From positions 992,001 to 1,056,000 of the forward strand of contig NZ_SHKO01000002.1 of assembly GCF_004217095.1 (NCBI RefSeq): a stretch of 64,000 nucleotides of DNA. The letters run 5' to 3'. Shown piece after piece: positions 25,098 to 56,261 of this stretch. How positions within the stretch are numbered: the stretch's first letter is position 1; each line of letters begins with the position of its first letter. The notes under the pieces are model-generated. The model saw only the letters and a list, made by a program, of their open reading frames with translations, made no database searches and was not told where the DNA came from. The stretch comes from Advenella incenata. Its GTDB lineage: Bacteria > Pseudomonadota > Gammaproteobacteria > Burkholderiales > Burkholderiaceae_B. The position numbers and the translations under genes were made by a program.

Positions 25098-25114
25098 TTG
25101 GCACGATATTTGCT
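25098..25114 (+). promoter_or_regulatory. sigma-54 (-24/-12) promoter, CoA-transferase operon
   Basis: TTGGCACG-atat-TTGCT, an essentially perfect match to the RpoN consensus with GG and GC ten bases apart. It lies 38 bases before the first ATG of the operon. Confidence 0.85.
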
Positions 25115-25151
25115 TCTGTTGTTATAAAAACTACGAAGGTTCTTCATAGAC

Positions 25152-26402
25152 ATGCATAAAAATCGCACGGACATGCCGTATGCCGTTCTCCCCAAACTTG
25201 AAGGGACGAATGGTCAGACTTTACTCAACGGTGTGAGAATAGTAGATCTTACAACTTCGATTGCTGGCCCTTATGCGACGCAATTGCTTGCAGACCTTGG
25301 AGCCACTGTTTATAAAATTGAGAAGCATATTGTGGGTGATGACGCCCGTCACTGGGGGCCTCCTTTTATTCATGGGGAGTCGCCCTGGTTCTTAAGTGTC
25401 AATCGAAATAAACATAGTGTGGCGCTGAATCTGGGTTGCCCAGAAGGTCTGGACGTGTTGTATAAATTGATCGAGCAGTGTGATGTTCTTGTTGTGAACT
25501 TGGTCGAATCAGCCCAAAGAAGACTTGGCGTCGATTATGCTTGTTTGAGTTCCAAATTTCCGAAATTGATACACGCTTCTCTGACGGGGTTCGGGCTCAA
25601 AGGTGCGCGCAGCCATCTGCCAAGTTATGACTTGATCGCAGAGGGTTATTCAGGCGTGATGGATTTGACCGGTGAGGCAGAAAATGCTCCTCAGAAGGTG
25701 GGAACCCCTGCGGCGGATTTACTGGCAGGGCAGGATGTAGCTTTGGCAGTGTTGGCTGCCTACATCGACCGTGAACGAACGGGAAAAGGTTCCCAACTGG
25801 ATGTATCGATGCAGACAAGTATGACACGATTCATGGCCCCCCGACTGGCATCGTATCTGAGCTCCAATGAATTGCCACATCGATCTGGAGGGAAAGATTC
25901 TGTGATCGCTATTTATCAGGTATTTGACACTGCCGATAAGCAAATTTCGCTCGGGTTGGGGAATGACAACATTTGGCGGCGATTTTGGGTCGCCCTTGGG
26001 CAACCAGCCATGGGCAAAAATTTACGTTATGCTTCTAATGCAGAGCGTCGAAAGCACAGGGATGAGATTGTTGCAAAGATAGCTCAGGTGCTGCGTACAA
26101 GACTGCAGCGGGAATGGCTCGAGACGTTCGAGCAACACCGAGTTCCCGCCGGTCCGATCAATACGCTTCAGGAAGTGGCTAGAGACGAAGAACTTTTAAA
26201 GCTTCATTTTCTCTATCAGGTAGACACCTGCGTAGGTACTGTACCGCAGGTTGGTTTAGGTATTACCATTAACGGTAACGCGTCCGTTCATCGAAAAGCA
26301 CCACCCACACTGGGGGAGGATACGGAAGTGATTCTTAATAAACTATTAAATCTATCGCAGGAAGACATCATAAAATTGAGACAATCAGGCGCAATTGGAT
26401 GA
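25152..26402 (+). CDS. CaiB/BaiF (family III) CoA-transferase
   Basis: 416 residues. N-terminal LLNGVRIVDLTTSIAGPYATQLLADLGA and the catalytic-Asp region SYDLIAEGYSGVMDLTG are typical; the nucleophile equivalent is D160. These enzymes move CoA between carboxylic acids through an enzyme-aspartyl-CoA intermediate. It is the first gene of an operon with a CoA ligase and beta-oxidation-type enzymes, so it probably activates a pathway acid or recycles CoA from a product. ATG 25152 was chosen because of the promoter; a second Met follows seven codons later. Substrate unknown. Confidence 0.9.
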   Translation: MHKNRTDMPYAVLPKLEGTNGQTLLNGVRIVDLTTSIAGPYATQLLADLGATVYKIEKHIVGDDARHWGPPFIHGESPWFLSVNRNKHSVALNLGCPEGLDVLYKLIEQCDVLVVNLVESAQRRLGVDYACLSSKFPKLIHASLTGFGLKGARSHLPSYDLIAEGYSGVMDLTGEAENAPQKVGTPAADLLAGQDVALAVLAAYIDRERTGKGSQLDVSMQTSMTRFMAPRLASYLSSNELPHRSGGKDSVIAIYQVFDTADKQISLGLGNDNIWRRFWVALGQPAMGKNLRYASNAERRKHRDEIVAKIAQVLRTRLQREWLETFEQHRVPAGPINTLQEVARDEELLKLHFLYQVDTCVGTVPQVGLGITINGNASVHRKAPPTLGEDTEVILNKLLNLSQEDIIKLRQSGAIG

Positions 26403-26438
26403 ATACGAATACCCGTTGATTTGTATAAGGGAAGCTTA

Positions 26439-28145
26439 ATGAATAAAATTTTGACTTTGCACGAGCCTCAAGCCGTGCAAAAAAATTATCTTAATGGTGC
26501 GTGGCGCACTGAAACGCTATATTCTCTGCTAAGTGGACATGCGCATACTCGCCCCAACGAGTACGCCTTACGCGATCCATATTGCCGGCTCACTTGGCGC
26601 GAGGTTCTCGCCAATGCAGATAGTATTGCCGCAATTCTTTATCAACGTGGTCTGCGGCAGGGTGACCGGGTAGCCATATGGTTACCTAACCGGATTGAAA
26701 GCATCTTGATATTTTTGGCCTGTTCGCGCAACGGATATATATGTTGTCCTTCACTGCATCAGAATTATACGATCGCCGAAGTGACCAAATTACTTTCCCG
26801 AATCCGGTGCAAAGCCTTGTTTTGTCAGCCGGGCTACGGGGCAGACTCTGACCGTCTTTCAATTTTTGAACAGGCAGCAGCCATCCCGACGCTCAAGCAG
26901 CTTTATGCATTAATGCCTCAAGACGGGGATAAAGAACGCCCATCATTGCCCGATGGGGTGCTACCGTTCCCGGACTATAAACAGAGAGTCGGAATCACAA
27001 GTGATCCCGTGCTTGATCCAGACAAAGTAGTCTATCTGGCTTTTACATCGGGTACAACAGGCGAACCAAAAGGGGTCATGCATAGCGATAATACACTGCT
27101 GGCCAATGGCAGAACACTGGTCAGCGACTGGAAACATGACTCAAAGACCATACTACTGTCCTTAAGTCCAATAAGCCATCACATCGCCACGGTTGCCATG
27201 GAGCAATCTCTAATCGCTGGTATGGAGCTTGTGATACACAATCCTCTCGTCTATTCGTCCTCGCTGGACTGGATTCTCGAGGCCGGCGCCACATATGTGA
27301 TGGGTGTTCCCACCCATGCGATGGATATTCTGAGCATGTTGCGCGAGCGTGGCCTGGATCGGTTGGGTAACGTGAATGTCTTTTATATGGCAGGCTCCCA
27401 GATACCTACTGAAGTTGCGCAGAAATTTTTGAATTTGGGCATCAAGCCACAAAACGTATATGGCATGACTGAAAACGGATCACATCAATATACGCTGCCG
27501 ACTGACGATAGTCATACGATTGTAACCACATGTGGTCGAACATGCAAAGGCTATGATATCCGCATATTCCAGCAGGAGAACCCGGACGAGGAAGTAGCCC
27601 CGGGCGAGATTGGAGAGATCGGTGGAAAGGGCGCGGTATTGACACTTGGCTACTACGACAATCAGGATGCAACTGAACATTCCTTCAATTCAAACGGCTG
27701 GTTTTTGAGCGGTGATCTGGGCAGACTTGACGAACAGGGGTGCCTGCATGTCGTGGGTCGCAAAAAGGACTTGATCATTCGCGGTGGCCACAATATTTAC
27801 CCGTCGCAAATTGAAGAGTTGGCTCATAAGCATCCGTCTGTTTTGAAATCGGCGGCGTTTCCAATTCCAGATGCCCGACTGGGAGAAAAGGTCTGTCTTG
27901 CGATCATTGCTGAAACCGGCACGGTGCTGGAGGCGAACGAGGTGCTGCAGCACCTATGCAATGCAGGGCTTTCCAAGTACGACATGCCTGAATATTACCT
28001 GCAGATGGATGCCTTTCCACTGACTTCCAGCGGAAAAATACTGAAACGCGAACTGGTTCAATGGCACCGGGAAGGGCGTATCAAGGTGCACCCAGTTCGC
28101 TGGAAAGCCAGTTCGGCAGCGAAAAACGAAGGAGTATCCGCATGA
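26439..28145 (+). CDS. acyl-CoA synthetase (AMP-forming)
   Basis: 568 residues from ATG 26439, eight bases after AAGGGA; an upstream TTG (26421) is unlikely. Adenylate-forming motifs: FTSGTTGEPKG at 202-212, YGMTENGSHQ, SGDLGRLDEQG, KDLIIRGGHNIYP and the C-terminal TSSGKILKR with the catalytic Lys. It resembles ligases for cyclohexanecarboxylate or medium-chain acids more than benzoate ligases. It would convert the acid made by the island's oxygenases and dehydrogenases to a CoA ester. Its stop overlaps the next ATG (ATGA). Confidence 0.9.
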   Translation: MNKILTLHEPQAVQKNYLNGAWRTETLYSLLSGHAHTRPNEYALRDPYCRLTWREVLANADSIAAILYQRGLRQGDRVAIWLPNRIESILIFLACSRNGYICCPSLHQNYTIAEVTKLLSRIRCKALFCQPGYGADSDRLSIFEQAAAIPTLKQLYALMPQDGDKERPSLPDGVLPFPDYKQRVGITSDPVLDPDKVVYLAFTSGTTGEPKGVMHSDNTLLANGRTLVSDWKHDSKTILLSLSPISHHIATVAMEQSLIAGMELVIHNPLVYSSSLDWILEAGATYVMGVPTHAMDILSMLRERGLDRLGNVNVFYMAGSQIPTEVAQKFLNLGIKPQNVYGMTENGSHQYTLPTDDSHTIVTTCGRTCKGYDIRIFQQENPDEEVAPGEIGEIGGKGAVLTLGYYDNQDATEHSFNSNGWFLSGDLGRLDEQGCLHVVGRKKDLIIRGGHNIYPSQIEELAHKHPSVLKSAAFPIPDARLGEKVCLAIIAETGTVLEANEVLQHLCNAGLSKYDMPEYYLQMDAFPLTSSGKILKRELVQWHREGRIKVHPVRWKASSAAKNEGVSA

Positions 28146-28912
28146 CCGTACTGCTTGAGTTTGTTGACCAATTCGCGCACATCAGTTTGTCGCGGCCCAA
28201 CGCCTTGAATGCACTGAGTTTTCAGATACTAGGGGAGCTGAAGGACGCCGTTGTCCAAGTGAGAGCGTCAAATGCGCGCGCCCTTATCATTACCGGCAAT
28301 GGCGACAAGGCGTTTTGTGCTGGTGCGGATATCCCGGAACTGATTGACCGAGCGCTGATGTACGAACTGGAAGGCGTTGAACTTGGACAGAGCGTGTTCG
28401 ATAGTCTTGCCCATTTGAAAATTCCTTCTGTTGCCGTCATTCAGGGATATGCGTTCGGCGGTGGCCTGGAGCTGGCACTTGCCTGCAATTTTCGTGTCGC
28501 CACGGAAAAGGCACGGATGGGATTGCCTGAGGTGAAACTGGGACTGATACCCGGCTATGGGGGTACGCAACGCCTGCCGCGATTGATAGGAGAAGGGCGC
28601 GCGCTGGAGCTCATCATGTCGGGAAGAACGGTTTATGCCGAAGAGGGAGAGCGTATTGGGCTTGTGAACCGGATAGACAACGACGGTACGCCACTGGAGA
28701 TAGGTCAGCGGTTTTTGGAACCTATGCTCAAGCATGGCCTTTGCGCCCTGTACTTTGCGCGTGAAGCCGTTCAGCGTGGTATGCAGGCCGATTTAACAGA
28801 TGGTTTGAAGATAGAACGTGACTTGTCGACACTTGCCTATCGCAGCGATGATGCATCAGAAGGCCTGCGTGCCTTTATCGATAAACGAACCCCAGCTTTC
28901 AAGGATTGTTGA
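28142..28912 (+). CDS. enoyl-CoA hydratase
   Basis: 256 residues, starting within the ligase stop (ATGA overlap). Full crotonase signature with both catalytic glutamates in place: GGGLELALACNFRVA and GLPEVKLGLIPGYGGTQRLP, plus CAGADIPEL for the oxyanion hole. It therefore should be a true hydratase adding water to a 2-enoyl-CoA. It sits between the CoA ligase and an SDR in the beta-oxidation-like operon. Confidence 0.92.
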   Translation: MTVLLEFVDQFAHISLSRPNALNALSFQILGELKDAVVQVRASNARALIITGNGDKAFCAGADIPELIDRALMYELEGVELGQSVFDSLAHLKIPSVAVIQGYAFGGGLELALACNFRVATEKARMGLPEVKLGLIPGYGGTQRLPRLIGEGRALELIMSGRTVYAEEGERIGLVNRIDNDGTPLEIGQRFLEPMLKHGLCALYFAREAVQRGMQADLTDGLKIERDLSTLAYRSDDASEGLRAFIDKRTPAFKDC

Positions 28913-28915
28913 AAT

Positions 28916-29662
28916 ATGGAAAACAAGTTGATTTTTGTCACAGGCGCCAGCCGCGGTATTGGCGCTATGATTGCTTTGGTATTGGCCGAACGAGGATTTG
29001 AGGTGGGTTGCCTTTCCCGGTCGGGCGATCTACCCCAGGTAGGTGACGTATCCGATGCCATCTCTGCCCGCTGGCATCCCGTTGCTTGTGACGTCATGGA
29101 TGAAACGGCATTGGCCGCTGCCATGACCTGGTTGCGCGAAAATTTGCAGATGTCGATCAGGGGCCTGGTCAATAATGCCGGATTGCATACCGAGGAGCCC
29201 ACCATTGATTTACCTATGGATGAATTTCGACGGTTAATGGATATCAACGCTGTCGCTGTCCTGCGCGCCAGTCAACTCGTGTACCCGCTGCTCAAAGAAA
29301 ATGGTGGTGGTCTGATCGTGAATATTGGTTCGTTTTATGACAAGCTGGGCGTTAAACGCAATGTTTCCTATTGTGCGTCCAAGGCTGCGGTCGGCGCTAT
29401 CACGCGCTGTCTGGCGGTTGAGTGGGCCAGGGACGGAATTCAGGTGATTAATGTTGCGCCTGGCTATATTGCAACGGACCTAAACCGCGAGGCGATGGAA
29501 AGTGGACCTCTGCGTGCGTATCTGGAAAAGCGTATTCCTCGCAAAAGTCCCGGAGATGCTAGAGATGTGGCCGTGCTTGTGTCATCATTATTTCACGACG
29601 GATTGCAGTTCTTGAGCGGAGAAACCATCTATCTCGACGGCGCCCAGAGTGTGTCGGTATGA
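28916..29662 (+). CDS. short-chain dehydrogenase/reductase (FabG-like)
   Basis: 248 residues. TGASRGIG at 9-16, NNAG, and catalytic Y152xxxK156 (YCASKAAVG), with the C-terminal GETIYLDGAQS usual in FabG-type SDRs. It starts three bases after the hydratase stop. It may oxidise a hydroxyl made by hydration, or reduce a ring ketone. Direction and substrate are not evident. Confidence 0.88.
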   Translation: MENKLIFVTGASRGIGAMIALVLAERGFEVGCLSRSGDLPQVGDVSDAISARWHPVACDVMDETALAAAMTWLRENLQMSIRGLVNNAGLHTEEPTIDLPMDEFRRLMDINAVAVLRASQLVYPLLKENGGGLIVNIGSFYDKLGVKRNVSYCASKAAVGAITRCLAVEWARDGIQVINVAPGYIATDLNREAMESGPLRAYLEKRIPRKSPGDARDVAVLVSSLFHDGLQFLSGETIYLDGAQSVSV

Positions 29663-29699
29663 GTAGCCGGCAAAAAACAGAAAAACACAAGGAGTGAAG

Positions 29700-30875
29700 G
29701 TGAATATTCTTGAACGTATTGACGCAGGGCTATCCTGGTCGAACGAAGAAAAAATGTTGTTGGATTCGGTGCAGTCACTGTGTGAAACCGCATTGAAGCC
29801 ACGCGCTGCAGCCTGTGACAAAAACAGCGAATTTCCGTGGGACAACATTCAGGATATTAATGAACTGGGGCTGAACGCCATGTTCATTCCCGAAGAATAT
29901 GATGGCATGCCGTTGTCTTATCGTTGCTACCTGGCGTGTGTCCGTGAAATTTCCAAGGCTTGTGCCTCAACTGGCATTATCTGGGCAACCAATTTTCACG
30001 CTATCAAACCCGTTATTCAGTTCGGGTCGGGTGAGCTCAAGTTCAAAGTGTTACCACGTATGGCCCGCGGCGCTCTGGCAGCGTTGGTTATTACCGAGCC
30101 GTCCGCAGGCTCAGACGCCACCGGGATGAAGACACAATTCAAAGAAGAGGGCGACCAGATCGTGGTCGACGGCCAGAAGATTTTTATCAGTAATGGTGAT
30201 ATCGCCGATTTCTACGTGGTGTTCGGCAAATGGGTCGGTGTTGACAGTGCCAGAGATGCGATCAGCGCCGTGGTGATCGAGAAGAGTACACCAGGGCTGA
30301 CCGTGACCGGCGTGGAACACAAAATGGGCACGCGGGGCTCCGGTACCGCGTCACTTTCATTTGAGGGCGTGCGGATACCCAAAGAGAATCTGCTAGCGCC
30401 GGCCGGCAAGGGCTTATCGGTGCTTCTGACCTCGCTGAATAAATCCCGTCCTAGCGTTGCTGCCCACGCGCTGGGTATCGCGCGCGCGGCATTCGAGGAT
30501 GCCGTTGCCTACATTAACGAGCGTCGCCAGTCCAATCGCCGTGTTCTTGAATTTCAGGGAGTACAGTTCATGGTAGCTGACTTGGCCGCAGAGCTGGCAG
30601 TCTGCGAACGCTGGCTCTGGCATGTCGGCGAACTTGTCGACGAGAATGTCAATGATATGGGAATCGAGGCATCGATACTCAAACTAAAGGCGACCGATCT
30701 GGCAATGCGAATGACAACGGATGCCGTACAGCTGCATGGGGGTTACGGCTATTGTCAGGATTTCCGTGTTGAAAGATTGATGCGGGATGCCAAGATCACC
30801 CAGATTTGGGAAGGAACAAACCAGATACATCGGCAATTGATTGGCCGCAGCTTTCTGAAAAAGGAAATGAAATGA
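29700..30875 (+). CDS. acyl-CoA dehydrogenase
   Basis: 391 residues. GTG 29700 is preferred: AAGGAG (29689-29694) is five bases upstream and overlaps the alternative GTG at 29694. FAD-dependent fold with ALVITEPSAGSDATGM, FISNGDIADFYVV, QLHGGYGYCQDFRVERLMRD and WEGTNQIHRQ, which holds the catalytic Glu in this family. It makes an alpha,beta double bond in the CoA-activated acid and passes electrons to ETF. Its stop overlaps the next start (ATGA). Confidence 0.92.
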   Translation: MNILERIDAGLSWSNEEKMLLDSVQSLCETALKPRAAACDKNSEFPWDNIQDINELGLNAMFIPEEYDGMPLSYRCYLACVREISKACASTGIIWATNFHAIKPVIQFGSGELKFKVLPRMARGALAALVITEPSAGSDATGMKTQFKEEGDQIVVDGQKIFISNGDIADFYVVFGKWVGVDSARDAISAVVIEKSTPGLTVTGVEHKMGTRGSGTASLSFEGVRIPKENLLAPAGKGLSVLLTSLNKSRPSVAAHALGIARAAFEDAVAYINERRQSNRRVLEFQGVQFMVADLAAELAVCERWLWHVGELVDENVNDMGIEASILKLKATDLAMRMTTDAVQLHGGYGYCQDFRVERLMRDAKITQIWEGTNQIHRQLIGRSFLKKEMK

Positions 30876-31747
30876 GTGAAATCAGGACAGTAGGCGTAGT
30901 CGGTAGCGGCACGATGGGTACGGGGATTGCCATTGTGATTGCTCGCGCTGGATTTAAAACGATTGTGCTTGACACCAGGGACGATGCTCTTGAGCAGGCA
31001 CGCCAGCAGGCCATTGCGTTTCTGGAAAAATCAGTTGCCCGTGGAAAATTGAAAGAAGGGCAGGATGTCCAAATCATGCAGCAATGGAAAGGGACGACCA
31101 AACTTGAAGACCTGGCCGAGTGTGACCTGGTCATCGAGGCAATCTATGAGGATCTGACAGTCAAGCATGATCTGTTTTCCAAACTCGACAAGGTCTGCCT
31201 GCAACATACTATATTTGCCTCGAACACCTCGACCATTTCCATTACCGAAATTGCAGGTGGCAGTGGGCGACCTGACAAAGTCGTGGGCATGCACTTTTGC
31301 TTGCCTGCGCAATTGATGAAACTGGTGGAAATGTCCCCAGGGCTGACAACATCCGAGGAAACGTTTGATCGACTGTGGAAGTTCTCAGAGGCACTGGGGC
31401 AAAAGCCGGTCAAAACACGTGACACGCCGGGATTTATTCTCAATTACTTTCTGATCCCATGGCATAACGATGTGATCAATATGGTCGATCAGGGTGTCGC
31501 CGAACCGGCCGATATTGATCTGGCTGTCAAAACTGCCCTGGGTTATCCACTGGGACCGCTGGAGCTGCTAGATATGGTGGGCATGGATACGCAAAAGCTG
31601 TTATCGGAAGCCATGTATGGGCTGACCAACGAACCGCGTGCAGCCTGCCCCTCTCTGGTTAAGCGAATGGTTGGTGCGGGCAGGCTTGGACGCAAAACAG
31701 GGAGGGGCTTTCACACTTATCAGAACGACAAAATTTTCGGAGCGTGA
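30872..31747 (+). CDS. 3-hydroxyacyl-CoA dehydrogenase
   Basis: 291 residues from ATG 30872 with AAGGA six bases upstream. Rossmann motif GSGTMG at 11-16, the S-N-T-S segment FASNTSTISITEIA, the catalytic His in GMHFCLPAQLMKLVE, and a complete C-terminal domain (DTPGFILNYFLIP...GYPLGPLELLDMVG). Size and architecture match PaaH/Hbd-type enzymes. It oxidises a 3-hydroxyacyl-CoA with NAD. Confidence 0.92.
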   Translation: MSEIRTVGVVGSGTMGTGIAIVIARAGFKTIVLDTRDDALEQARQQAIAFLEKSVARGKLKEGQDVQIMQQWKGTTKLEDLAECDLVIEAIYEDLTVKHDLFSKLDKVCLQHTIFASNTSTISITEIAGGSGRPDKVVGMHFCLPAQLMKLVEMSPGLTTSEETFDRLWKFSEALGQKPVKTRDTPGFILNYFLIPWHNDVINMVDQGVAEPADIDLAVKTALGYPLGPLELLDMVGMDTQKLLSEAMYGLTNEPRAACPSLVKRMVGAGRLGRKTGRGFHTYQNDKIFGA

Positions 31748-31751
31748 CGCA

Positions 31752-32417
31752 ATGAGTTATCAAATCATCAAAAGTGGCGAAAGCCAATCTTTTCCACAAA
31801 CCCATACATTTTTACAGGCGGCGCAGCCGCTGGGCAAGGGACTTGTCCTGATTGGCAGTGAGGCAGGCACGGCATGGCAGGACAAGGCAACTTGCGTCAA
31901 GGGATTGCCGTTTGTTGCGATCGAGCTGGGGATGGAGTGTTTGGGCGAACACATCGGCGACGACGATGGGGCGCCCAATGTGGTCGGGTTTGCTCGTTTC
32001 CGTTTGGGCGACGCAGATCCGACGCAACTTATTGAGTTAGTGAAAAAAAACTATACGGATCCAGCCTCTCTGGATGCCGCGCGTCAGGCGTTTGAAGCGT
32101 CAGGACTGACGGTTGTCGTTTGCAATGATTTTCCCGGCCGTATTCTGAACCGGCTGGTACGACCCTACTACAACGCAGCGTTGCGTCGGCTTGACGAAGG
32201 GTTAGCCAGCGCCGCTGACATGGACAAGACGCTATGCCTGGGTCTAGGCTATCCAGAAGGTCCCATTTCTCTCTTGAATCGCACTGGCTTGCATCATCAT
32301 TTTGTCGCGAGTCAGGCGCTGTACGAGGCACTGGGACAGGAGCCTTATGCCCCTGCACGCCGCGCACGGGTGAGCTGGGCCCAACAGAATCGGAGTAAAA
32401 ATGACTCAACCACGTGA
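31752..32417 (+). CDS. protein with a stand-alone 3-hydroxyacyl-CoA dehydrogenase C-terminal domain
   Basis: 221 residues from ATG 31752, four bases after the previous gene. Residues about 100-210 match the helical C-terminal domain of 3-hydroxyacyl-CoA dehydrogenases (DFPGRILNRLVRPYYNAALR, GLGYPEGPISLLNRTGL). The first about 100 residues lack the GxGxxG Rossmann motif and the catalytic His, and read GKGLVLIGSEAGTAWQD and ELGMECLGEHIGDDDG. It may pair with, or modulate, the complete dehydrogenase encoded just upstream. Catalytic activity alone is doubtful. Confidence 0.75.
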   Translation: MSYQIIKSGESQSFPQTHTFLQAAQPLGKGLVLIGSEAGTAWQDKATCVKGLPFVAIELGMECLGEHIGDDDGAPNVVGFARFRLGDADPTQLIELVKKNYTDPASLDAARQAFEASGLTVVVCNDFPGRILNRLVRPYYNAALRRLDEGLASAADMDKTLCLGLGYPEGPISLLNRTGLHHHFVASQALYEALGQEPYAPARRARVSWAQQNRSKNDSTT

Positions 32418-32538
32418 GCAAATCGTGCTGGTTCCTGTCTGTAGGCCGTTTTGTATTTACGATGTGGAAGTGCCGTTCTCGGACGTGGGTGATCAGATGA
32501 GAGAAGTTATACAATTCCTTTCTCAAGGTAGATCATAA
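32401..32538 (+). CDS. small 45-residue protein, unknown function
   Basis: An ATG with GGAGT upstream opens inside the end of the preceding gene. It runs 45 codons and stops at TAA 32536-32538, whose last A is the first base of the next ATG (TAATG). Both junctions are coupled, and the frame fills an otherwise empty 120-bp gap in a tight operon. The peptide begins MTQPREQIVLVPVCRPFCIY and ends FLSQGRS. No family recognised. Two Cys residues five apart are the only notable feature. Confidence 0.6.
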   Translation: MTQPREQIVLVPVCRPFCIYDVEVPFSDVGDQMREVIQFLSQGRS

Positions 32539-33524: not shown

Positions 33525-33721
33525 CAACCGATCTTTTAAAAAATGCGCGCCGTATAAAGTGTACAGCCACGCTTTAATGCATCTGATTAGTCGCGCTATT
33601 GAATCATTTTATGTAATTAGAAAGCCGTAGTGTGTTTTTCTAAGACAGTTGTAAGTACGTATTTACTCATTTGATGTAGCCTTTATCGAGTAAATTCAAT
33701 CGTTTAGCATGTGTTACGTTG

Positions 33722-40857: not shown

Positions 40858-40858
40858 C

Positions 40859-47441: not shown

Positions 47442-48866
47442 ATGAATTCTGTCCAAGAAAATCGTTCATCTCTTGGTACGGCGGTAGTAATCGGAGGCAG
47501 CATCGCGGGCTGCTCCGCAGCTGCGGCCTTGCACGAACAGTTTGATCGGGTGTTGGTTATCGATCGCGACGAGTTGCCCGCTACTCGTAAATCACGCAAA
47601 GGCGCCCCGCACGCATATCAGTTTCATGCGCTTGCTGTAGGTGGTAGGAAAGCGATGGAGGGTTTGTTCCCGGGGTTAACGCAACAGGCCATCGACAGCG
47701 GAGTGCCACTCATCGACACTGCCAATACACTTTGGTACTGTTCAAAGTTCGGATTTTTTCGAAATCAACCCTCCAACTTGCGAAGCCTTCTGCTTACGCG
47801 GCAGTTCCTAGAGTGGACGCTGCGTAACCGAATTCGTGAGATTGTCAATGTTGAGGTGTTGGATCGGACTGCGGTCAGTGGGCTCGTGGCGCACGGTGGC
47901 ATAGTGACCGGAGTCGAGGTGATCGATTCAGCCAAGATTAAGCGAACCATCGATGCCGATCTTATCGTTGATACGAGTGGTCGTCCGTCCGTTGCTCCCG
48001 ATTGGCTGGCCTCACTCGGCTATCCTCGGCCGGTTGAGACGACCATCAATGCTAAGTGGGGTTACACTACCGCCTATGTCCGGCCAGGTCCAGAGTGGTC
48101 GCCTCCCTATGATGCGCTCTACATTAATCCAACGGTTACCGGCAACGACGTAAGAGCGACGCGGGGCGCTGGCATGTGGGCGCAGGAGGACAATGTTTGG
48201 GTGTTGACTGCACAGGGGTGCGCGGGAGACTATCCCCCCTATGACGAGGAGGGTTTCCGAGACTTTCTCGGTAGCTTCGGCAGGACTGAGTTTTTGGAGC
48301 TACTTGACAAAGGAGAGATGGTAAAGCCTCCGGTAGCGTGGCGCAATACGACCAACCGGTTACGTGACTTCGCCGGCCTGCAGTCACGACCTGAGCGGTT
48401 TATCGTGCTTGGCGACGCGACTGCGGCGTTCAATCCCGTTTACGGTCAGGGAATGAGTTCGGCGGCAATGGGTGCTGGGTTGCTCCGGGAAGAATTGCGA
48501 ACATGGTTCAGCAGTGGAGCAGAGGATCTGACTGGCTTTGCAGAGCATTTCCAAAAGCAGCTCAATACATCCGTGATTCAGGCCTGCTGGGCCTTCTCGA
48601 CTGGCTCCGACTTGCAAATTCCAGGCGTCGAAGTTGACGGACTGCGACAGGAATCGGAGAAGTCGCAAGAACAGGAGTACGTCAATCGCGTGGTGGCCTT
48701 GGCCACTGAGGATCTCGATGTGCAGCTCAAGCTGACGGAGACAATTAGTATGGTTCGTGGGCCGGAATGGATGTCCGAGGAGGAAGTTCGTGTCAAGGTG
48801 CAGGAGAATTGGGATCGCTTGGGCAACCTGACCCGCGAAGATAACGGACCGTTGGTTGCACCATGA
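47442..48866 (+). CDS. FAD-dependent monooxygenase/oxidoreductase
   Basis: 474 residues from ATG 47442 with AGAGGAG ten bases upstream. FAD motifs: VVIGGSIAGCSAAAAL near the N-terminus and FIVLGDATAAFNPVYGQGMS (GD motif), as in geranylgeranyl-reductase-like and squalene-epoxidase-like flavoproteins. The gene and its partner are richer in G+C than the neighbouring operons and read like actinobacterial sequence. Coupled to an epoxide hydrolase (4-bp overlap), it may epoxidise a double bond or hydroxylate a ring. The reaction is inferred. Confidence 0.85.
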   Translation: MNSVQENRSSLGTAVVIGGSIAGCSAAAALHEQFDRVLVIDRDELPATRKSRKGAPHAYQFHALAVGGRKAMEGLFPGLTQQAIDSGVPLIDTANTLWYCSKFGFFRNQPSNLRSLLLTRQFLEWTLRNRIREIVNVEVLDRTAVSGLVAHGGIVTGVEVIDSAKIKRTIDADLIVDTSGRPSVAPDWLASLGYPRPVETTINAKWGYTTAYVRPGPEWSPPYDALYINPTVTGNDVRATRGAGMWAQEDNVWVLTAQGCAGDYPPYDEEGFRDFLGSFGRTEFLELLDKGEMVKPPVAWRNTTNRLRDFAGLQSRPERFIVLGDATAAFNPVYGQGMSSAAMGAGLLREELRTWFSSGAEDLTGFAEHFQKQLNTSVIQACWAFSTGSDLQIPGVEVDGLRQESEKSQEQEYVNRVVALATEDLDVQLKLTETISMVRGPEWMSEEEVRVKVQENWDRLGNLTREDNGPLVAP

Positions 48867-50002
48867 AAGTTGAATCATTCGTAGTTAACGTCGATCAGCG
48901 CGAGCTCGATGATCTTAGGCGACGGCTATCGCTAACTCGGTGGCCACAGCCCATCGACGGAGAGGGGTGGTCGAGCGGAACTGATATCAGCTATTTGCGT
49001 GACCTATGCACTTACTGGGAAACTGAGTATGACTGGCGCCGCACGGAGGCGAATCTCAACCGATGGCCCCAGTTCACAACGACCGTTGATGGACAGCGAA
49101 TCCATTTTCTGCACGCCCGTTCGCCGGTGTCCGATGCTCGGCCGCTGATGCTGTTGCATGGATGGCCGAGTTCAGTATTGGAATTTGGGAAGGTCGTAGC
49201 GAGGCTTACTGATCCTGCTGCCTACGGGGGCGATCCTGCGGACGCATTCCATGTGGTGGTTCCGTCGTTGCCAGGATACGCATGGAGCGGACCCATCACG
49301 CAGCCAGGCTGGGATGTCAGTCGCATAGCGAATGCGATGACTGTGGTGATGGAGCACCTTGGTTACGGCACCTACGGCCTTATGGGTGGAGATTGGGGGT
49401 CACTAGTGGCTTCGCGAATGGCATTGGCTACACCGGAGCGGATATCCGGCCTATACCTGACGCTGGTGACGGTACCGCCGACGGGTGCAGACGATGACTC
49501 GACTCCTGAGGAGACGCTGCTCGCCGAAGAGTTCAGACAATACGTCGCGACGGAGACCGGCTATATTGCCATCCAGGCAACGAAACCGCAAAGCCTGGCA
49601 TTCGGGCTCACCGACTCCCCAGCCGGGCTCGCTGGCTGGATCGTCGAGAAGTTCCATGCATGGACCGATTGTGGTGGCCAATTGGAATCTGCGTTAACCC
49701 GTGAGGAAATCCTCGGCAACATCACTGCTTACTGGCTGACTGGAACAGCCGGATCGTCGATGCGGTTGTACCGGGAATCTGTGCTCGCGGGATCTGCGAG
49801 CCCAGTAAGCAAGTATGTCGACGTGCCAACCGGAGTCGCTGTGTTCCCGAAGGAGCCTTACCGAGTCTCGCGACGACAGGCCGAGCGTTTGTACCGTGTT
49901 GTCCGGTGGACGGAGTTCGCACGCGGAGGTCATTTTCCAGCTCTCGAGCAGCCAGAATGTTTTGTCACGGATATCCGGGCGTTTTTCCGAGAACTCGCTT
50001 AA
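48863..50002 (+). CDS. epoxide hydrolase (EHN domain, alpha/beta hydrolase)
   Basis: 379 residues, ATGA overlap with the monooxygenase. N-terminal EHN segment (RRLSLTRWPQP, DWRRTEANLNRWPQF), oxyanion motif HGWPSS, nucleophile D177 in GGDWGS, lid tyrosine Y303 and base H357 in GGHFPAL. These features define microsomal/juvenile-hormone-type epoxide hydrolases. It would open an epoxide to a diol, plausibly the product of the preceding monooxygenase. G+C-rich like its partner. Confidence 0.92.
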   Translation: MKVESFVVNVDQRELDDLRRRLSLTRWPQPIDGEGWSSGTDISYLRDLCTYWETEYDWRRTEANLNRWPQFTTTVDGQRIHFLHARSPVSDARPLMLLHGWPSSVLEFGKVVARLTDPAAYGGDPADAFHVVVPSLPGYAWSGPITQPGWDVSRIANAMTVVMEHLGYGTYGLMGGDWGSLVASRMALATPERISGLYLTLVTVPPTGADDDSTPEETLLAEEFRQYVATETGYIAIQATKPQSLAFGLTDSPAGLAGWIVEKFHAWTDCGGQLESALTREEILGNITAYWLTGTAGSSMRLYRESVLAGSASPVSKYVDVPTGVAVFPKEPYRVSRRQAERLYRVVRWTEFARGGHFPALEQPECFVTDIRAFFRELA

Positions 50003-50272
50003 GACTATACGAGGGTAAGTGAGCACCGTGGCAGGCAGAATCGTCACGTTCTGTACATACATCGTTGAAATCGCTCGCCATGTGGGGTGTCGGCGTAGCA
50101 CTCGAGGATCAGCCTTCTGAACCTTTGGGGTTCCAGAATAAATTGAATGCTGTAGTTAAAAAAGACATTGTCTTAGGCTGCTGTGCGTACGCAGTACACA
50201 CTAGGTGCGGCGTTTGAGAAGATCACACTTTGTAAGCGCTTATTAACAGGACCAAGTCGGCATGACTATAAA

Positions 50273-50288
50273 TGGCACGATGTTTGCT
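50273..50288 (+). promoter_or_regulatory. sigma-54 promoter, P450 operon
   Basis: TGGCACG-atgt-TTGCT, full consensus. It lies 163 bases before the P450 ATG, leaving a long leader. A perfect palindrome tgcgtacgca is found about 90 bases upstream, within the region where activator sites are expected. Confidence 0.8.
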
Positions 50289-50451
50289 TTTAGTCTGTCT
50301 ATTAGGATAGGAATGCAGCGAATCAATCAGAGATCCTGCTCTGGGTGGTTTGAAAAGATTGATCCAATATTTATAGATTGACCGATTGTATATAACACAG
50401 AAGGCGATCAACAATGTTGGCAGGATATTTGTTGAAATTAGGAGAAGACCG

Positions 50452-51702
50452 ATGTCATTCGATAAAAGCTATATTGATAACAATCTCGTAAACCCTGAAT
50501 GGTGGCCGTCTGGGGAGTTTCATGAGGTATTCAAACAGCTACGCGACGAAGAGCCGTTATATTGGGCAGAGCCTGAGAACTACGGGCGTAATTTCTGGGT
50601 GGTCACACGTTATGATGACGTAAAAGCGATAATGGCTGATTCGATGACTTTCAGCAATTCTGTAGACAGTCGAATTCCTAGATCGGGAAAACGACTGACG
50701 ACTCTACAGAGAAGAGCTCTTATGTGGGATGTGAATATTGCTATGCTGGATCCCCCTTTCCATACGGTTTTGCGCCAACCTATGAATAAGCATTTCAGTG
50801 TGCCGGCTATCAATAAGCTGAAGAATGATGTCGAAAAAATTGTTGACGAGTTAATCGAAGAGCTAAAGACAAAGAAATCGATCGATATAGTCAATACGTT
50901 TGCAGCTAAACTCCCGATGGATATCGTATTTGCAATGCTTGGGATTCCGGAAGAGGATTGGCCGATGCTTGAAAAATATGCATACCAAGCTTTTTCTCCG
51001 GCCGATCCCAAAGGTACTATCCCAGGAAAAACCCATGCTGAAGCGTCGTATATCGGCCTTGAAAGTATAGGTAAGTATGGTTATCAAATGGCTAGGGACA
51101 GGCTTGCCAATCCTCGCGACGACATGGCGACTGTTATTAGCAAAATGGTGGTAGATGGTACGTCGCTCGATGAGCACGAAATTGCTACGTGGTTTCTTGT
51201 GCTAATTTTGGGGGGGCTTGAAACTACAAGAAATGCTATCGGTGCAGGCATGTGGACTTTTCTTGCAAATCCTGATCAGAAACAATTGCTCATTGAGCAG
51301 CCTGATCTAGCTGGTGGAGCCGTCGAAGAGGTGCTTAGATGGGTTACGCCAGCCCGGGGTCGGCTAAGAGTAGCAAAAGCACCCTATAGACTTCATGGTA
51401 AGGTCATTAAGCCATTGGATTGGGTTTTCATTTATCCGGCTTCCGGCAACAAGGATGAAAGAAAATTTGATAATCCACATAAGTTCGATATCACCCGCAC
51501 CTCGAATGAACACCTGGCTTTGGGTGAAGGAATCCACGCTTGCCTGGGACGTGCTCTTGTCAGACTTGAACTCAAGACATTATTCTCAAAAATATTTGAG
51601 GCCTTCCCTAACATGGATTTCGCAAATGATAAAAGGCCTCATTGGGTCATAGATCATCAGGTCTCCGGTGTCACTAAATTAGAAGTAAACCTGAATCAGT
51701 GA
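50452..51702 (+). CDS. cytochrome P450 (bacterial class I)
   Basis: 416 residues from ATG 50452, which has AGGAGAAG upstream. The I-helix carries GGLETT (254-259), the ExxR pair is E293/R296, and the haem ligand is C364 in LGEGIHACLG, where the usual leading Phe is Leu (HLALGEG). Soluble, without a membrane anchor, so it needs a ferredoxin, which is encoded next. Size and sequence style are like terpene- and alicyclic-hydroxylating P450s (P450cam, P450lin). Substrate unknown. Confidence 0.94.
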   Translation: MSFDKSYIDNNLVNPEWWPSGEFHEVFKQLRDEEPLYWAEPENYGRNFWVVTRYDDVKAIMADSMTFSNSVDSRIPRSGKRLTTLQRRALMWDVNIAMLDPPFHTVLRQPMNKHFSVPAINKLKNDVEKIVDELIEELKTKKSIDIVNTFAAKLPMDIVFAMLGIPEEDWPMLEKYAYQAFSPADPKGTIPGKTHAEASYIGLESIGKYGYQMARDRLANPRDDMATVISKMVVDGTSLDEHEIATWFLVLILGGLETTRNAIGAGMWTFLANPDQKQLLIEQPDLAGGAVEEVLRWVTPARGRLRVAKAPYRLHGKVIKPLDWVFIYPASGNKDERKFDNPHKFDITRTSNEHLALGEGIHACLGRALVRLELKTLFSKIFEAFPNMDFANDKRPHWVIDHQVSGVTKLEVNLNQ

Positions 51703-51789
51703 AGTTTCTGATTCCGATAATAACTGTGAAGAAAATAATATTTATGCGAATGGTAACGGTTCACTCTTTAAATGTTTGGAGAATTAGAA

Positions 51790-52107
51790 ATGGTGAAAGC
51801 AATATTTCATCTTGAAAATGGTGAAATCCAAGAAATCGAGGCTGAAGAAGATAACTCGTTGATGTTCAGTGCAGTGCGTAACGACGTGGGCGGGATTCTG
51901 GGCGAATGTGGCGGCGCGATGTCCTGCGGTACATGTCACGTATACGTTGACCCGAAATGGGTCGATCTGGTGCCCGCTGCGTCTGCTGCCGAAATCGAGA
52001 TGCTCGAAGCTCTTGAAAGTTACCGGCCTGAAAGTCGCCTGGCTTGTCAAATAGAGTTGAGTAAAGAAACGAATGGCATCGAGGTGATGATAGCACCCGC
52101 AGAATAG
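51790..52107 (+). CDS. [2Fe-2S] ferredoxin for the P450
   Basis: 105 residues from ATG 51790 with GGAG eight bases upstream. Ligands C40, C46, C49 and C86 (ECGGAMSCGTCHVY, SRLACQ), the putidaredoxin pattern. It follows the P450 and should be its direct electron donor. No reductase gene is adjacent; the one at 42216 is the nearest candidate. Confidence 0.92.
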   Translation: MVKAIFHLENGEIQEIEAEEDNSLMFSAVRNDVGGILGECGGAMSCGTCHVYVDPKWVDLVPAASAAEIEMLEALESYRPESRLACQIELSKETNGIEVMIAPAE

Positions 52108-52146
52108 GCGTAACCCAAAGACACACAGTTTGGAGATAACTACTTG

Positions 52147-53256
52147 ATGACTGAAAAAACAGCTAAATACATTGAATTTGTTGCACCTTACACCTTCGAA
52201 GCAAGAGAGATTCATCGTCCCGCAATAGGAGAGGATGACCTCCTTTTAAAGATATCGCTTTGCGGAGTGGATGGGTCGGAGCTTCATATGTTCCGTGGGG
52301 AGCTACAGTGGGTCAATGACATGGCACCTCTTATTTTTGGAGATGAGATCGTCGGAACGGTTGAAGAGATAGGGGACAGGGCTCGACGACAGCGAAAACT
52401 TGAGGTTGGCGACAGGGTAGCGCTTGAAGCAAAGTGGCCATGCAATCAGTGCTCGAGCTGTCTTCGGAGGCAATATTATCTATGTGATGTCCATGGAATT
52501 ATTTCCGGGTATGGCGCGACGACAAGCAAATCTCCTCCATTCTTATGGGGTGGCTATTCAACACACGCGTTTGTGCCAAAACAAGCTTTGGTCTACAAAA
52601 TTCCCGATACTCTGCATGATTCCACAGCGCTGATCGGCTGTTCTGTGCTCGCAAATGGGATCCGTTGGGTTGAAGAGTCGGGCGTGGGTGATGGAGATCA
52701 CGTATTAATTGTGGGCCCTGGCCCTCAAGGTCTCGCCTGTGCTTTGGTTGCGCTCTCTTTGGGGGCCAAAGTCAGCATGGTCGGACTACGCGATGACGCT
52801 TCGCGGCTCGAACTAGCAATGAAATTTGGTGTGCATAACACGTTCTATGTCTTGCCAGATGGCCCTGAAGGCTTGGCAGCTCGCGTGCTACAGGAGGCCG
52901 GCCAAGCTGATGTAGTCATTGACCTGGCGGGAGTCCAAGACGCGAAACTCTTGGGATTTGCCGTGGTCAGAAAGATGGGCACGTTTGTTAATGTGGCGCT
53001 ACCGTTTCCGTCTGCACAGTCGATGAATTGGTTGGATCTTCTTGCTAGAGAAATTCGTATCCTTAGCTACGCATCGCATCCCTACACAGTCGAGGCAGGG
53101 CTCGCTATGGCAGAAAAGCTGTTGGAGAAAGGAATAGATATTGGTAGTTGGATTACGCATATTTATCCTTTGGGACAAGCTCAGATCGCGTTGGAGGCCG
53201 CAGCATACCAAACAGAAGAGCGACCTATCAAAGTGGCGCTAAATCCACAGCATTGA
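52147..53256 (+). CDS. zinc-dependent alcohol dehydrogenase (MDR family)
   Basis: 369 residues from ATG 52147; a TTG three bases earlier is possible. Catalytic zinc ligand C39 in LCGVDGSELH, structural zinc cysteines C99, C102, C105 and C113, and nucleotide motif IVGPGPQGLACALVAL. It is placed directly after the P450 and its ferredoxin, and would oxidise the alcohol made by the P450 with NAD(P). Confidence 0.9.
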   Translation: MTEKTAKYIEFVAPYTFEAREIHRPAIGEDDLLLKISLCGVDGSELHMFRGELQWVNDMAPLIFGDEIVGTVEEIGDRARRQRKLEVGDRVALEAKWPCNQCSSCLRRQYYLCDVHGIISGYGATTSKSPPFLWGGYSTHAFVPKQALVYKIPDTLHDSTALIGCSVLANGIRWVEESGVGDGDHVLIVGPGPQGLACALVALSLGAKVSMVGLRDDASRLELAMKFGVHNTFYVLPDGPEGLAARVLQEAGQADVVIDLAGVQDAKLLGFAVVRKMGTFVNVALPFPSAQSMNWLDLLAREIRILSYASHPYTVEAGLAMAEKLLEKGIDIGSWITHIYPLGQAQIALEAAAYQTEERPIKVALNPQH

Positions 53257-53315
53257 ATGTCATTTTCAAACATGCGTATTCTAAACTTTCGTGAGAACGA
53301 GTGAGGTAAAATTCT

Positions 53316-54071
53316 ATGAACCGAGTGAATGCTAAATCAAAATTTTTTGAGATGTTCGAACGAAATGAAAGGCCTTTGGGTGTTTTTGTTTCGTGTATGG
53401 ATCCCGCGTCGACAGAAGCCCTAGCGGACGCCGGCTTCGATTATGTAGTACTTGACGGTGAGCACGGAAAAATGGGGAGAGTCGACGTTGAGACTCACTC
53501 TCGTGCAGCGGCTGCAAGAGGTATCATTCCGCTCGTGCGAATACTTGAAAATTCTCAAACTCTCATTCAGGCCATGCTTGACTCCGGAGCCCAAGGAGTA
53601 ATCATTCCACACCTTGAAACTGCACACGATGCGCAACGAGCTCTAGCGGCGAGCCTGTATTCACCCGTTGGTAAGAGGGGTATGTGCAACGCATGTTACG
53701 CCGGCGGCTACCAATTGGATAGCTGGCCTGATCATGTTAAAGCATCGAATCAAAATGTTCTAGTGATCCCATTGATTGAGTCTGCTCGAGCCGTAGAAAA
53801 TATTAAAGAAATAGTCGCTGTGAATGGTATCGATGTGGTGTTTTTTGGCCCAGGCGATCTCGCGGCTGAAATGGGCCTGAATTTTACAAAGGACGGTGAT
53901 CGACTTATGGATTCTTGGCAACGAGTGAAAGATGCAGCGAAAGAGGCAGGTAAGTACACTTTAGCACCACGAGGTTGGGGATTCGATGATGCGGATATCC
54001 TTATCGCCGAAATGGACATACAAATGTTATTGAACGCCGGAAAGGCAATTGTTCAGCAGTACAAGCAATAA
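53316..54071 (+). CDS. HpcH/HpaI family aldolase
   Basis: 251 residues. Class II pyruvate-aldolase fold: GFDYVVLDGEHGKMG, a metal-binding Glu in VIPLIESARAVENI and Asp in FFGPGDLAAEMG. Family members cleave 4-hydroxy-2-oxo acids to pyruvate or a semialdehyde. Last gene of the P450 operon; it could release a small 2-oxo acid from a ring-opened intermediate. Confidence 0.9.
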   Translation: MNRVNAKSKFFEMFERNERPLGVFVSCMDPASTEALADAGFDYVVLDGEHGKMGRVDVETHSRAAAARGIIPLVRILENSQTLIQAMLDSGAQGVIIPHLETAHDAQRALAASLYSPVGKRGMCNACYAGGYQLDSWPDHVKASNQNVLVIPLIESARAVENIKEIVAVNGIDVVFFGPGDLAAEMGLNFTKDGDRLMDSWQRVKDAAKEAGKYTLAPRGWGFDDADILIAEMDIQMLLNAGKAIVQQYKQ

Positions 54072-54594
54072 TATTAATCTGAGACTAATTTCGGTCGCCA
54101 ATGATATATACGCGATCTTCCCTGGCGAGGGTTTCACTTTGAAATAGCCGGCAGACTTCTTTTGTTGTCTTTGCCAGTAGCTAGGCTCCTTTTTTTAACG
54201 ATGGTTTTGATTGTTGCCAAGACATCATAATGTAAAAATTCCTTGTGCATCGGATGTAAGGTGAGAAACCGTATATTCAAATGCTTGAGTTTTGGGTGAA
54301 CGCCATGATTTCCTGCGGTTTTTCTGCCATTTAGGCAGACAGGGACTTTGGTAAATTAGTGTGATTCGATGTCTAGTAGTCGATCGTCAAACTGAGACTT
54401 TTGCGCGGAGCGCGCGTCAGGCTTTTCATATGGCTATTAATCAAATGTTTTTGCAGCCTACAAAAATTCAACATGTGTCTTATCCCAGTTGATAGCTGAG
54501 ACCGCACAGAGCAAGAGTATATTATCGGCGTTTACTTTCATCGGTAAACGCGATATTTCAGGTGGCGTAACTGAAAGTAAAGGAGCAGATACTG
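54072..54594. other. 523-bp gap before the MFS gene
   Basis: No gene and no -24/-12 promoter found. A long A/T-rich stretch with no clear terminator. The permease gene may be read from an unrecognised housekeeping promoter here. Confidence 0.4.
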
Positions 54595-55869
54595 ATGGAA
54601 TATCCTAAGTCCGAATGGCGCATGGGTTGGAAAGTCGTGTTAAGTGGAGCTCTGGGTATGGGCACGGGATATGGTTTGTTAATGATGACAGCCGGCCTCT
54701 TTGTCAAGCCTATGCAGGAAGAATTTGGATGGTCCAGAACTGCACTAAGCATTCTCCCGATAATGGGGGTAGTGAGTGCTTTAGTTTTGCCGCTAACTGG
54801 CTATTTGGTTGACCGATGGGGCCCCAGGGTCGTCGGAACCTTTGGCCTAGTCTCCTTAATGCTCGGGTGTGTAGGCTTTTGTTTCGTCCCGCCGGACAAA
54901 TTCCTGTTTTATTGCTTAGTGATAGTTTTGGGAGCATTGGCGTCCGCTAGCGGGGCTATGACATGGGTTAGAGGAGTGGCCACATGGTTCGATCAAAGCA
55001 AGGGCTTAGCGTTTGGCCTAACATTTAGTGGTATTTCTATTATCTCTGCCATTGTTTTGCCTGTTCTTAGCGGTGTTATCGACGATTGGGGTTGGCGGGC
55101 AGGTTTCTTTGTGCTTTCACTAATGATTCTGTTTTTAGGATTACCCACAGTTTTATTGTGGTTCAGAGAGCGGACGCAGGAAATAAATATTGACGAAATT
55201 TCCCCAAAAAAAATAGGGAGTACGCCTGGTTTTAGTCTCGCTCTTCGTAGCCCACGTTTCTGGTTGATTTTCGTTTGCTTTTCTCTGGTAAGTTTTCCGG
55301 TTGGTGGTTTTATGTATCATCTCGTGCCAATTCTCACCGATAAGGGGATAAATATACAAATGGCAACAGCTGCTGCTTCCGCCTTTGCGCTGTCGATAGC
55401 TTTGGGCAGAGTTGCTGCTGGTTTTCTACTCGACAAACTATGGCCTCCAGGGGTGGTGTGTTTTTTCTTTCTAATCCCTATATTGGGGGTAACTTTAGTT
55501 CATTTTCTGCAGCCCCATTGGGATTGGGTGGGGCCAATAGCAGCTCTCTCTGGGGTGCTGATTGGTTTTGCGCAAGGCGCCGAGGCTGACTTTGCTGCTT
55601 ACTTAGTTGCTCGGTATTATCCCATTGAGGTTTTTGCACGTGTATACAGTCTTCTGGGGGCTGCGATTTATGGTGCAATAGCATTGGGTGGTGTCGCTTT
55701 CGCGACTATCCATGATGTATTCAGTGATCACGCGATTACTATGATGTTGGCGGGAGCTTGCTATTTAGCGGGCGGATTAATGATTCTTCTAATAGAGAAA
55801 ATTGAGCCTAGCCTTAGCGCCGAAGTTTTTTCCAAAAGTGAAATTAACCTGAAGAGAGCCGAGCAATGA
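54595..55869 (+). CDS. MFS transporter (monocarboxylate/oxalate-formate type)
   Basis: 424 residues with twelve hydrophobic segments. The motif after helix 2, GYLVDRWGPRVVG, and the central MYHLVPILTDKGI are typical of bacterial monocarboxylate-porter-like MFS proteins. A short hydrophilic loop (about 190-210) separates the two halves. Probably takes up the substrate acid or exports an intermediate. Transcribed alone. Confidence 0.9.
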   Translation: MEYPKSEWRMGWKVVLSGALGMGTGYGLLMMTAGLFVKPMQEEFGWSRTALSILPIMGVVSALVLPLTGYLVDRWGPRVVGTFGLVSLMLGCVGFCFVPPDKFLFYCLVIVLGALASASGAMTWVRGVATWFDQSKGLAFGLTFSGISIISAIVLPVLSGVIDDWGWRAGFFVLSLMILFLGLPTVLLWFRERTQEINIDEISPKKIGSTPGFSLALRSPRFWLIFVCFSLVSFPVGGFMYHLVPILTDKGINIQMATAAASAFALSIALGRVAAGFLLDKLWPPGVVCFFFLIPILGVTLVHFLQPHWDWVGPIAALSGVLIGFAQGAEADFAAYLVARYYPIEVFARVYSLLGAAIYGAIALGGVAFATIHDVFSDHAITMMLAGACYLAGGLMILLIEKIEPSLSAEVFSKSEINLKRAEQ

Positions 55870-56245
55870 TTTCCCTCGTCACTGCTAATTCTTGAGCGCT
55901 TTCGAAATATCGTTGAGACATCAGACACCACACAGGTAGTTGGCCAAGGTCGCTATCGGAATCTGGCTCAATGGTGGAATCGAGGGGGCACATAGCCAAG
56001 CAGTGCGCTGCGTGATCAAACTTGTGAACACCGGATTTGATAATAAATCATAGGATGAATTCGAGAGTCATAGCCCGAAGATAGCTTTGCTGTCCTTTAT
56101 GCCTACATCGAATGAAAAAAATGTTCTCATCAGGGACATTTTTACAAATTGGGCCTAAAAAGCAATGTACAGGACGAAATGCATATCTTCGCTTCTGCGA
56201 ATGAGATTAATACATGCTTGTCCGGTTTAAACCTATATATCGATT
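55870..56245. other. 376-bp gap before the aldehyde dehydrogenase promoter
   Basis: No gene recognised. It ends at a sigma-54 promoter, so activator-binding sites are expected, but none could be named. Confidence 0.4.
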
Positions 56246-56261
56246 TGGCATATATTTTGCT
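56246..56261 (+). promoter_or_regulatory. sigma-54 promoter, aldehyde dehydrogenase gene
   Basis: TGGCATA-tatt-TTGCT, one change from consensus, correct spacing, 62 bases before the ATG. Its presence argues against the longer frame from 56149, which would start upstream of it. Confidence 0.75.

Follow-up and report, generated by a model that had tools for sequence, protein, structure and literature searches.

In the nif cluster, many sigma-54 promoters are served by one enhancer-binding protein (EBP), NifA, whose binding site has a spacer of 10 bases. XylR, DmpR and HbpR bind paired upstream sites, which are separated by about three helical turns, and control one to a few promoters. Among the EBPs of Clostridiales, the excerpted survey gives one operon as the target of 170 out of 263 regulators, and otherwise two to six (PMC6615313). 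Here we describe a catabolic island of Advenella incenata in which -24/-12 elements precede many separate transcription units. It lies in a stretch of 64,000 nucleotides (contig NZ_SHKO01000002.1, positions 992,001 to 1,056,000; hereafter the window, whose coordinates, continued past its right edge where needed, are used unless a contig label is given). From its sequence features, the island is very probably a single sigma-54 regulon under one EBP of the one-component type, encoded at C2:1062759-1064381.

All seven -24/-12 17-mers listed in the initial annotation were found where it had placed them, on the plus strand. Six of them, at 25099, 37765, 38964, 47379, 50273 and 56246, match TGGCAY-N5-TTGCTT exactly, and the one at 33723 reads AGGCAC-N5-TTGCTT, with A replacing the first T. 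The ten-base spacing between GG and GC holds for all seven, giving the GG-N10-GC core in a TGGCA/TTGC context that is expected of sigma-54 promoters, and the distance to the first start codon, put at 38-163 bases, came out close to that, at 20-162 bases, when measured from the end of the element to the start of a frame of at least 60 amino acids; the value varies with the start chosen. The genome contains one match to the RpoN DNA-binding domain (C1:547505).

Across the genome (4,916,170 bases) there are 19 strict matches, six of which lie in the 31 kb between 25099 and 56262, all on the plus strand; the binomial probability of finding at least 6 of 19 in 31 kb is 1.6e-9. A seventh strict site lies 8.5 kb past the window, and the pattern read backwards gave no match in the whole genome. 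Perfect 16-mer matches number three in the window, compared with a mean of 0.075 when the whole window was shuffled 40 times under a first-order Markov model, and matches with at most one mismatch number eight (the seven and a site at 7907), compared with a mean of 1.5 and a maximum of 4 in the same shuffles. Up to 18 kb, GC content is 55-61%; it falls to mostly 45-50% in the island, where individual 2-kb steps span 41-58%. In the AT-rich part at 24-60 kb, the six strict matches stand against a mean of 0.02 and a maximum of 1 in 300 dinucleotide-keeping shuffles. Set against random expectation, the elements are strongly enriched in the island. The first 25 kb were correctly described as devoid of them: no perfect match occurs there, and the best match, TGGCACATGCCGTGCT at 7907, has one mismatch and lies inside the open reading frame (ORF) 7204-8001.

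As a complete set, the list of seven did not hold, since four more promoters lie beyond the window. With flanking DNA and a relaxed search, eleven promoters extend over 52 kb, reaching 12.6 kb past the window, the additional ones being 65504 (-), 65696 (+), 72543 (+) and 76639 (+). The promoter at 72543 is the seventh strict element and stands ahead of a CaiB-type CoA-transferase gene, divergent from the gene of the proposed activator. The other three were added by relaxed genome searches that required a promoter together with the upstream motif described below (29 rows, with some promoters listed twice; 4 matches in all in a reversed-pattern control). Of these, 65504 and 65696 form a divergent pair with one common pair of upstream sites, between an ABC-transporter operon and a MaoC/thiolase/OB-fold/ligase operon, and by its promoters the regulon takes in both of these operons and extends to 76.6 kb. 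One further match in the island, C2:1031645 (minus strand, within the Rieske gene), was dropped as chance, with a promoter score of 9/13 and a motif score of -0.2.

A common upstream motif links these promoters. In the -200 to -20 regions of the eight promoters then known, TGT-N11-ACA was the top palindromic 3+3 dyad, present at seven of the eight, whereas the best dyad of any kind in 300 shuffled sets reached at most 6, in 3 sets; among gapped 4+4 words, none was common to at least five of the eight. This putative upstream activator site (UAS) is found at 10 of the 11 island promoters, 68-155 bp upstream. At seven promoters, corresponding to six distinct site pairs because 65504 and 65696 share one, the best partner site is 31 or 32 bp away, beating all 68-92 other tested offsets, with several partner sites imperfect and the one at 72543 scoring below zero. 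The 31-32 bp spacing is absent at 25099, 33723, 37765 and 76639, the last of which has two sites with a spacing of 23 bp. Outside the island, the motif accompanies one of 12 strict elements, at -202, and promoter-plus-motif matches there all have matrix scores of at most 7.2, except for C1:349490 (12.6 and 10.6). UAS-like sites also occur singly at 23843, 45633, 46031, 58093 and 80434, in each case without a convincing -24/-12 element nearby. The literature searched gave no match to TGT-N11-ACA or to a TGTCCT inverted repeat with sigma-54.

The sigma-54 activator domain is matched seven times in the genome: four of the matches are strong (206-239 bits), the other three weak (22-27 bits). One of the strong EBP genes is on the contig of the island, at C2:1062759-1064381 (70756-72381 in continued coordinates), 6.8 kb beyond the right edge, which bears out the expectation that the activator would be encoded outside the window. 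The other three lie far away, on C1 and C3. The EBP at C1:347886 is presumably AcoR-like. The protein encoded at C2:1062759-1064381 has 541 amino acids with PAS, AAA+ (Sigma54_activat) and Fis helix-turn-helix (HTH) domains, and the Walker A/B elements and GAFTGA loop of an EBP are present (GESGTGKE, LDEVGD, GAFTGA). The suggested XylR/DmpR-like type is ruled out by the missing XylR_N and V4R domains (Pfam). Assignments as NifA (291.6 bits, NCBIfam nifA cut-off 528.85) and as PrdR (389.2 bits, the closest NCBIfam model, cut-off 795) were also rejected.

The connection between this activator and the motif comes from its homologues, which were collected from 399 genomes of the order (best matches), from named genomes, and from 268 genomes of the family. 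Among the named genomes, Pseudomonas sp. v388 has a homologue of 71% identity and an uncultured Xanthobacter one of 62%, and the family scan gave homologues in 22 other genomes (41-51% identical). We looked for an exact motif and a divergent element of at least 10/13 in the 450 bases before each gene plus its first 60. This arrangement is found beside 29 of 32 homologues (40-71% identical) vs. 3 of 59 more distant EBPs; sorted by score, 11 of 13 homologues above 350 bits have it, as do 3 of 59 weaker ones (L073, L087, L109). Of the family loci, 18 of 19 have it, the miss being a broken gene (L170), although the upstream DNA of L155, L156, L157 and L160 is nearly identical and these loci are therefore only partly independent of one another. 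In 27 of the 32 homologues, the HTH core L(G)[IV][SA]R[ST][YH]LYK is present; L092, L093, L065, L166 and the broken L170 lack it.

Under a uniform rule, the window region (99.6 kb) has 10 promoter-plus-motif matches, 37765 not counted, and the regions of 15 relatives together have 31: six in G795, of the same genus, five in G962, four each in v388 and G836, three in G843, and 0-1 in each of ten others. It thus has the most matches of the 16 regions scanned, which are 20-120 kb long, under a rule fixed after the sites of the relatives had been seen; a reversed-element control gave 2 matches over all 16. A looser matrix rule gives five in v388 and two to three in G400. The UAS and -24/-12 blocks of 25099 and 33723 are conserved as footprints in G795. 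Several relatives (G836, G783, G789, G962) carry two copies of the activator family, about 2-17 kb apart.

Based on these observations, we hypothesize that a pathway compound or its CoA ester would be sensed by the N-terminal/PAS part of the activator, which would bind the palindromic, often paired TGT-N11-ACA sites 68-155 bp upstream, while its AAA+ domain, with an intact GAFTGA loop, would open the sigma-54 polymerase waiting at the -24/-12 element. Ten units would be switched on together, namely the core CoA operon, a crotonase, the Rieske, FAD epoxidase and P450 units, the aldehyde dehydrogenase, the ABC transporter, the MaoC/thiolase/ligase operon, CaiB and a MaoC-like unit, and the gene at 37765 is probably the eleventh. 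The proposal of a single RpoN regulon across units of different ancestry thus stands as regards the one rpoN gene, the motif common to 10 of 11 promoters and the EBP gene nearby, but its extent was understated and 37765 lacks the motif.

Several points weigh against this interpretation. No recognisable UAS was found at 37765, so that its membership draws on its promoter element and position alone. The promoter-like C1:349490 (L040, C1:349347-349504), with a -24/-12 element and two TGT-N11-ACA sites, adjoins a different EBP gene, and TGT/ACA half-sites are common among EBPs: in the excerpted text of two studies, 15 EBP groups of Clostridiales have TGT/ACA repeats 10-12 bp apart (PMC6615313), and half-site spacers are 9, 11 or 12 (PMC4641369). 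Therefore, the motif alone cannot name the protein. Since the matrix was built from 10 island sites and the uniform scan rule was set after the relatives' sites had been seen, the scores are partly circular. Sites resembling those of integration host factor (IHF) occur at only 3 of the 11 promoters, one of them exact, which is too few to be of use, and two homologues at 47% identity (L092, L093) are without the arrangement of motif and element.

The units themselves are described in order, with elements identified by pattern match and, unless stated otherwise, UASs by motif search. The core CoA operon (25152..33524, +) encodes, by Pfam and with homologous genes in relatives, CaiB, an AMP-ligase, a crotonase, a short-chain dehydrogenase (SDR), an acyl-CoA dehydrogenase, a 3-hydroxyacyl-CoA dehydrogenase (3-HCDH), a 3-HCDH C-domain protein and a zinc alcohol dehydrogenase (Zn-ADH). 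Its element TGGCACGATATTTGCTT (25099..25115, +) aligns with the G795 promoter, and its UAS TGTCCTTATACAAAACA (25018..25034), 81 bp before the element, is conserved in G795. The crotonase gene (33814..34623, +; Pfam), 85-91% identical in four relatives, follows the element AGGCACAAAATTTGCTT (33723..33739, +), whose G795 counterpart has TGGCAC, and the UAS TGTGTTTTTCTAAGACA (33631..33647). Behind it, at 34725-35376, is a split periplasmic-binding-protein gene whose two pieces correspond to the beginning and the end of the Pfam profile, with homologous stretches in several relatives. The element at 37765..37781 (+), where a UAS was not found, precedes the gene of a MetA/SphA-like outer-membrane protein (37887..38762, +; Phenol_MetA_deg, PF13557, by Pfam).

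The element at 38964..38980 (+) has a distal UAS TGTTTTTAAAACGAACA (38851..38867) and, 32 bp from it, a proximal UAS TGTGTTTTATAACGACA (38883..38899). It had been said to precede the Rieske operon, which does follow, but directly behind the promoter comes a truncated AMP-ligase fragment of 88 amino acids (39038-39304); the Rieske oxygenase alpha subunit, a glyoxalase-type protein, a ferredoxin and a ferredoxin reductase are encoded at 39415..43457 (+; Pfam/profile). A PLP-dependent decarboxylase gene at 43719-45311 (-) also lies within the island; no sigma-54 element was found for it, and the lone UAS-like site at 45633 is near. The operon for an Lsd18/MonCI-like FAD monooxygenase and an epoxide hydrolase (47442..50002, +) has its element at 47379..47395 (+), a near-perfect palindromic UAS TGTCTTTGGTAAAGACA (47311..47327), and 31 bp upstream of it a weaker second UAS with one mismatch (47280..47296). 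The P450 operon (50386..54071, +), encoding a CYP125/P450terp-like P450, a ferredoxin, a Zn-ADH and an HpcH/HpaI aldolase, has its element at 50273..50289 (+) and the UASs TGTAGTTAAAAAAGACA (50151..50167) and, 31 bp downstream, TGTGCGTACGCAGTACA (50182..50198). Ahead of the aldehyde dehydrogenase and PQQ alcohol dehydrogenase genes (56323..60082, +), the element at 56246..56262 (+) has the UASs TGTCCTTTATGCCTACA (56091..56107) and, again 31 bp downstream, TGTTCTCATCAGGGACA (56122..56138). The branched-chain-type ABC transporter operon (60948..64000, continuing past the edge to 65383, -) has its element, 65504 (-), outside the window. Further on, a crotonase occurs in two fragments (L027:7568-8352; 69568 and 69978), followed by a short MaoC-like ORF (L027:14604-14981; 76604), and by these two features the island is partly decaying.

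Alternative to a single regulon, the sigma-54 promoters might be shared by two or more of the four full EBPs of the genome. The lack of the motif at 37765 would fit such sharing, as would the three other strong activator genes, one of which adjoins the promoter-like site with similar paired sites. However, one motif is common to 10 of the 11 promoters and recurs beside 29 of the 32 homologues of the C2:1062759-1064381 activator, whereas the three other strong genes, far off on C1 and C3, resemble the activator family only in the AAA+/C-terminal part, and we regard sharing as unlikely. It is improbable, too, that the elements are leftovers in a decaying mosaic island, some no longer driving working genes: the broken or short genes (the ligase fragment, the split binding-protein gene, the crotonase fragments and the MaoC ORF) suggest some decay, but the remaining downstream genes that were inspected have long open frames and Pfam matches, and most elements and UASs are near consensus. 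Chance matches in AT-rich, horizontally acquired DNA, which the lower GC content of the island might suggest, can practically be dismissed, given the shuffles (0.02 strict matches vs. 6), the position of all elements on the coding strand ahead of genes, the common upstream motif and the conserved footprints.

Under the single-regulon interpretation, the origin of its parts can be considered. Identity to G795 is 75-88% for the core operon genes, 91% for the crotonase and 70-72% for the split binding-protein pieces; over those genes, G793, G836 and G843 are 58-86% identical. These similarities mark the core CoA operon as native to the family. In all four genomes, the divergent neighbour of the core operon is the family's own activator, 45-47% identical to the window-linked one, and the 25099 promoter and its UAS align with the activator-side promoter of G795, with a 15-base identical block at the UAS end and a conserved -24/-12 block. 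This native activator was not found in the 99.6 kb and is absent from the assembly; the three other strong EBPs of the genome match native activators over the AAA+/C-terminal part only (33-45%). The v388-type gene was the genome's only match at E <= 1e-60, among 3 of 10 candidates scored (5 of 10 at 1e-100). Between the 3-HCDH C-domain gene and Zn-ADH, the same four relatives have 1.15-1.18 kb with a second CaiB, where the window has about 0.15 kb, and the CaiB next to the v388-type activator shares 71% identity with the second CaiB of v388 and 54-61% with the family copies. In a tree, the activators of the window, v388 and two alphaproteobacteria form one group (99/99), 11 family activators including both same-genus ones form a separate group (100/99), and five other family proteins fall in further groups.

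A native core operon, a missing family activator and a present one that groups with Pseudomonas and Xanthobacter make a regulator swap likely. In this scenario, the activator and the neighbouring CaiB are likely copies from outside, of the Pseudomonas v388/Xanthobacter type, that replaced the family's own. Alternatively, an older duplication followed by loss may account for the pattern, or the native activator may merely be missing from this 10-contig assembly. Going further, the outside EBP might have displaced the native activator and taken over its UASs because both recognise TGT-N11-ACA, and through that site unrelated modules of the upper pathway (Rieske, epoxidase, P450, dehydrogenases, transporter) might then have been drawn into a common regulon of about 11 promoters, the largest of the 16 regions scanned; for this extended scenario, we consider the case for and against evenly poised. 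The FAD epoxidase had a relative in one other genome out of 350 of the class at E <= 1e-60 (35% identical), and the peripheral modules could therefore not be traced. A plasmid collection gave no match to window positions 25000-49900, the stretch searched. At the left edge of the low-GC island, adjoining a cpn60 chaperonin gene, a direct repeat of about 698 bases, exact and head-to-tail, occupies 20658-22054; it may be a tandem duplication, an insertion trace or an assembly artefact.

The gene content would suit a cyclic isoprenoid (terpenoid or steroid-like) as the putative substrate. The P450 is nearest to CYP125-type chains, with P450terp among the best matches, and the epoxidase is Lsd18/MonCI-like and accompanied by an epoxide hydrolase. 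Beyond the window are a 3-ketosteroid-1-dehydrogenase-like flavoprotein (482 bits to 7p18, below the NCBIfam cut-offs), a flavoprotein nearest in the PDB to 3-ketosteroid-delta4-5alpha-dehydrogenase but in NCBIfam only an FAD-binding protein, and thiolase/lipid-transfer-type proteins with a ChsH2-type OB-fold protein. Matches of the core ligase and acyl-CoA dehydrogenase to fatty-acid, acryloyl-CoA and cyclohexanecarboxylate models all fall short of the cut-offs.

Compared with described systems, the predicted regulon has its closest analogue in layout in the nif cluster, with many sigma-54 promoters in one cluster, one EBP and palindromic TGT...ACA upstream sites, and a similarity of TGT/ACA sites to the NifA UAS is mentioned in the survey excerpt cited above (PMC6615313). 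Unlike nif, the island has a spacer of 11 rather than 10, a PAS-containing one-component activator, and genes for degradation rather than nitrogenase. It shares sigma-54 control of degradation operons and paired upstream sites with XylR, DmpR and HbpR, but its activator is without XylR_N and V4R, and the site sequence differs and the promoters are more numerous. Among the Clostridiales EBPs, to which PrdR belongs, TGT/ACA repeat sites are also known; these EBPs, as far as the excerpt goes, control one to six operons (PMC6615313), whereas the island activator would control about ten units. A sigma-54 regulon under one EBP is a known kind of system, while the number of units predicted under one activator and the apparent swap are unusual. 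Since relatives have 0 to 6 such promoters per scanned region, the growth of a regulon and a regulator swap without rewriting of sites become testable, and the activator family with its site can help in the annotation of similar operons of related genomes.

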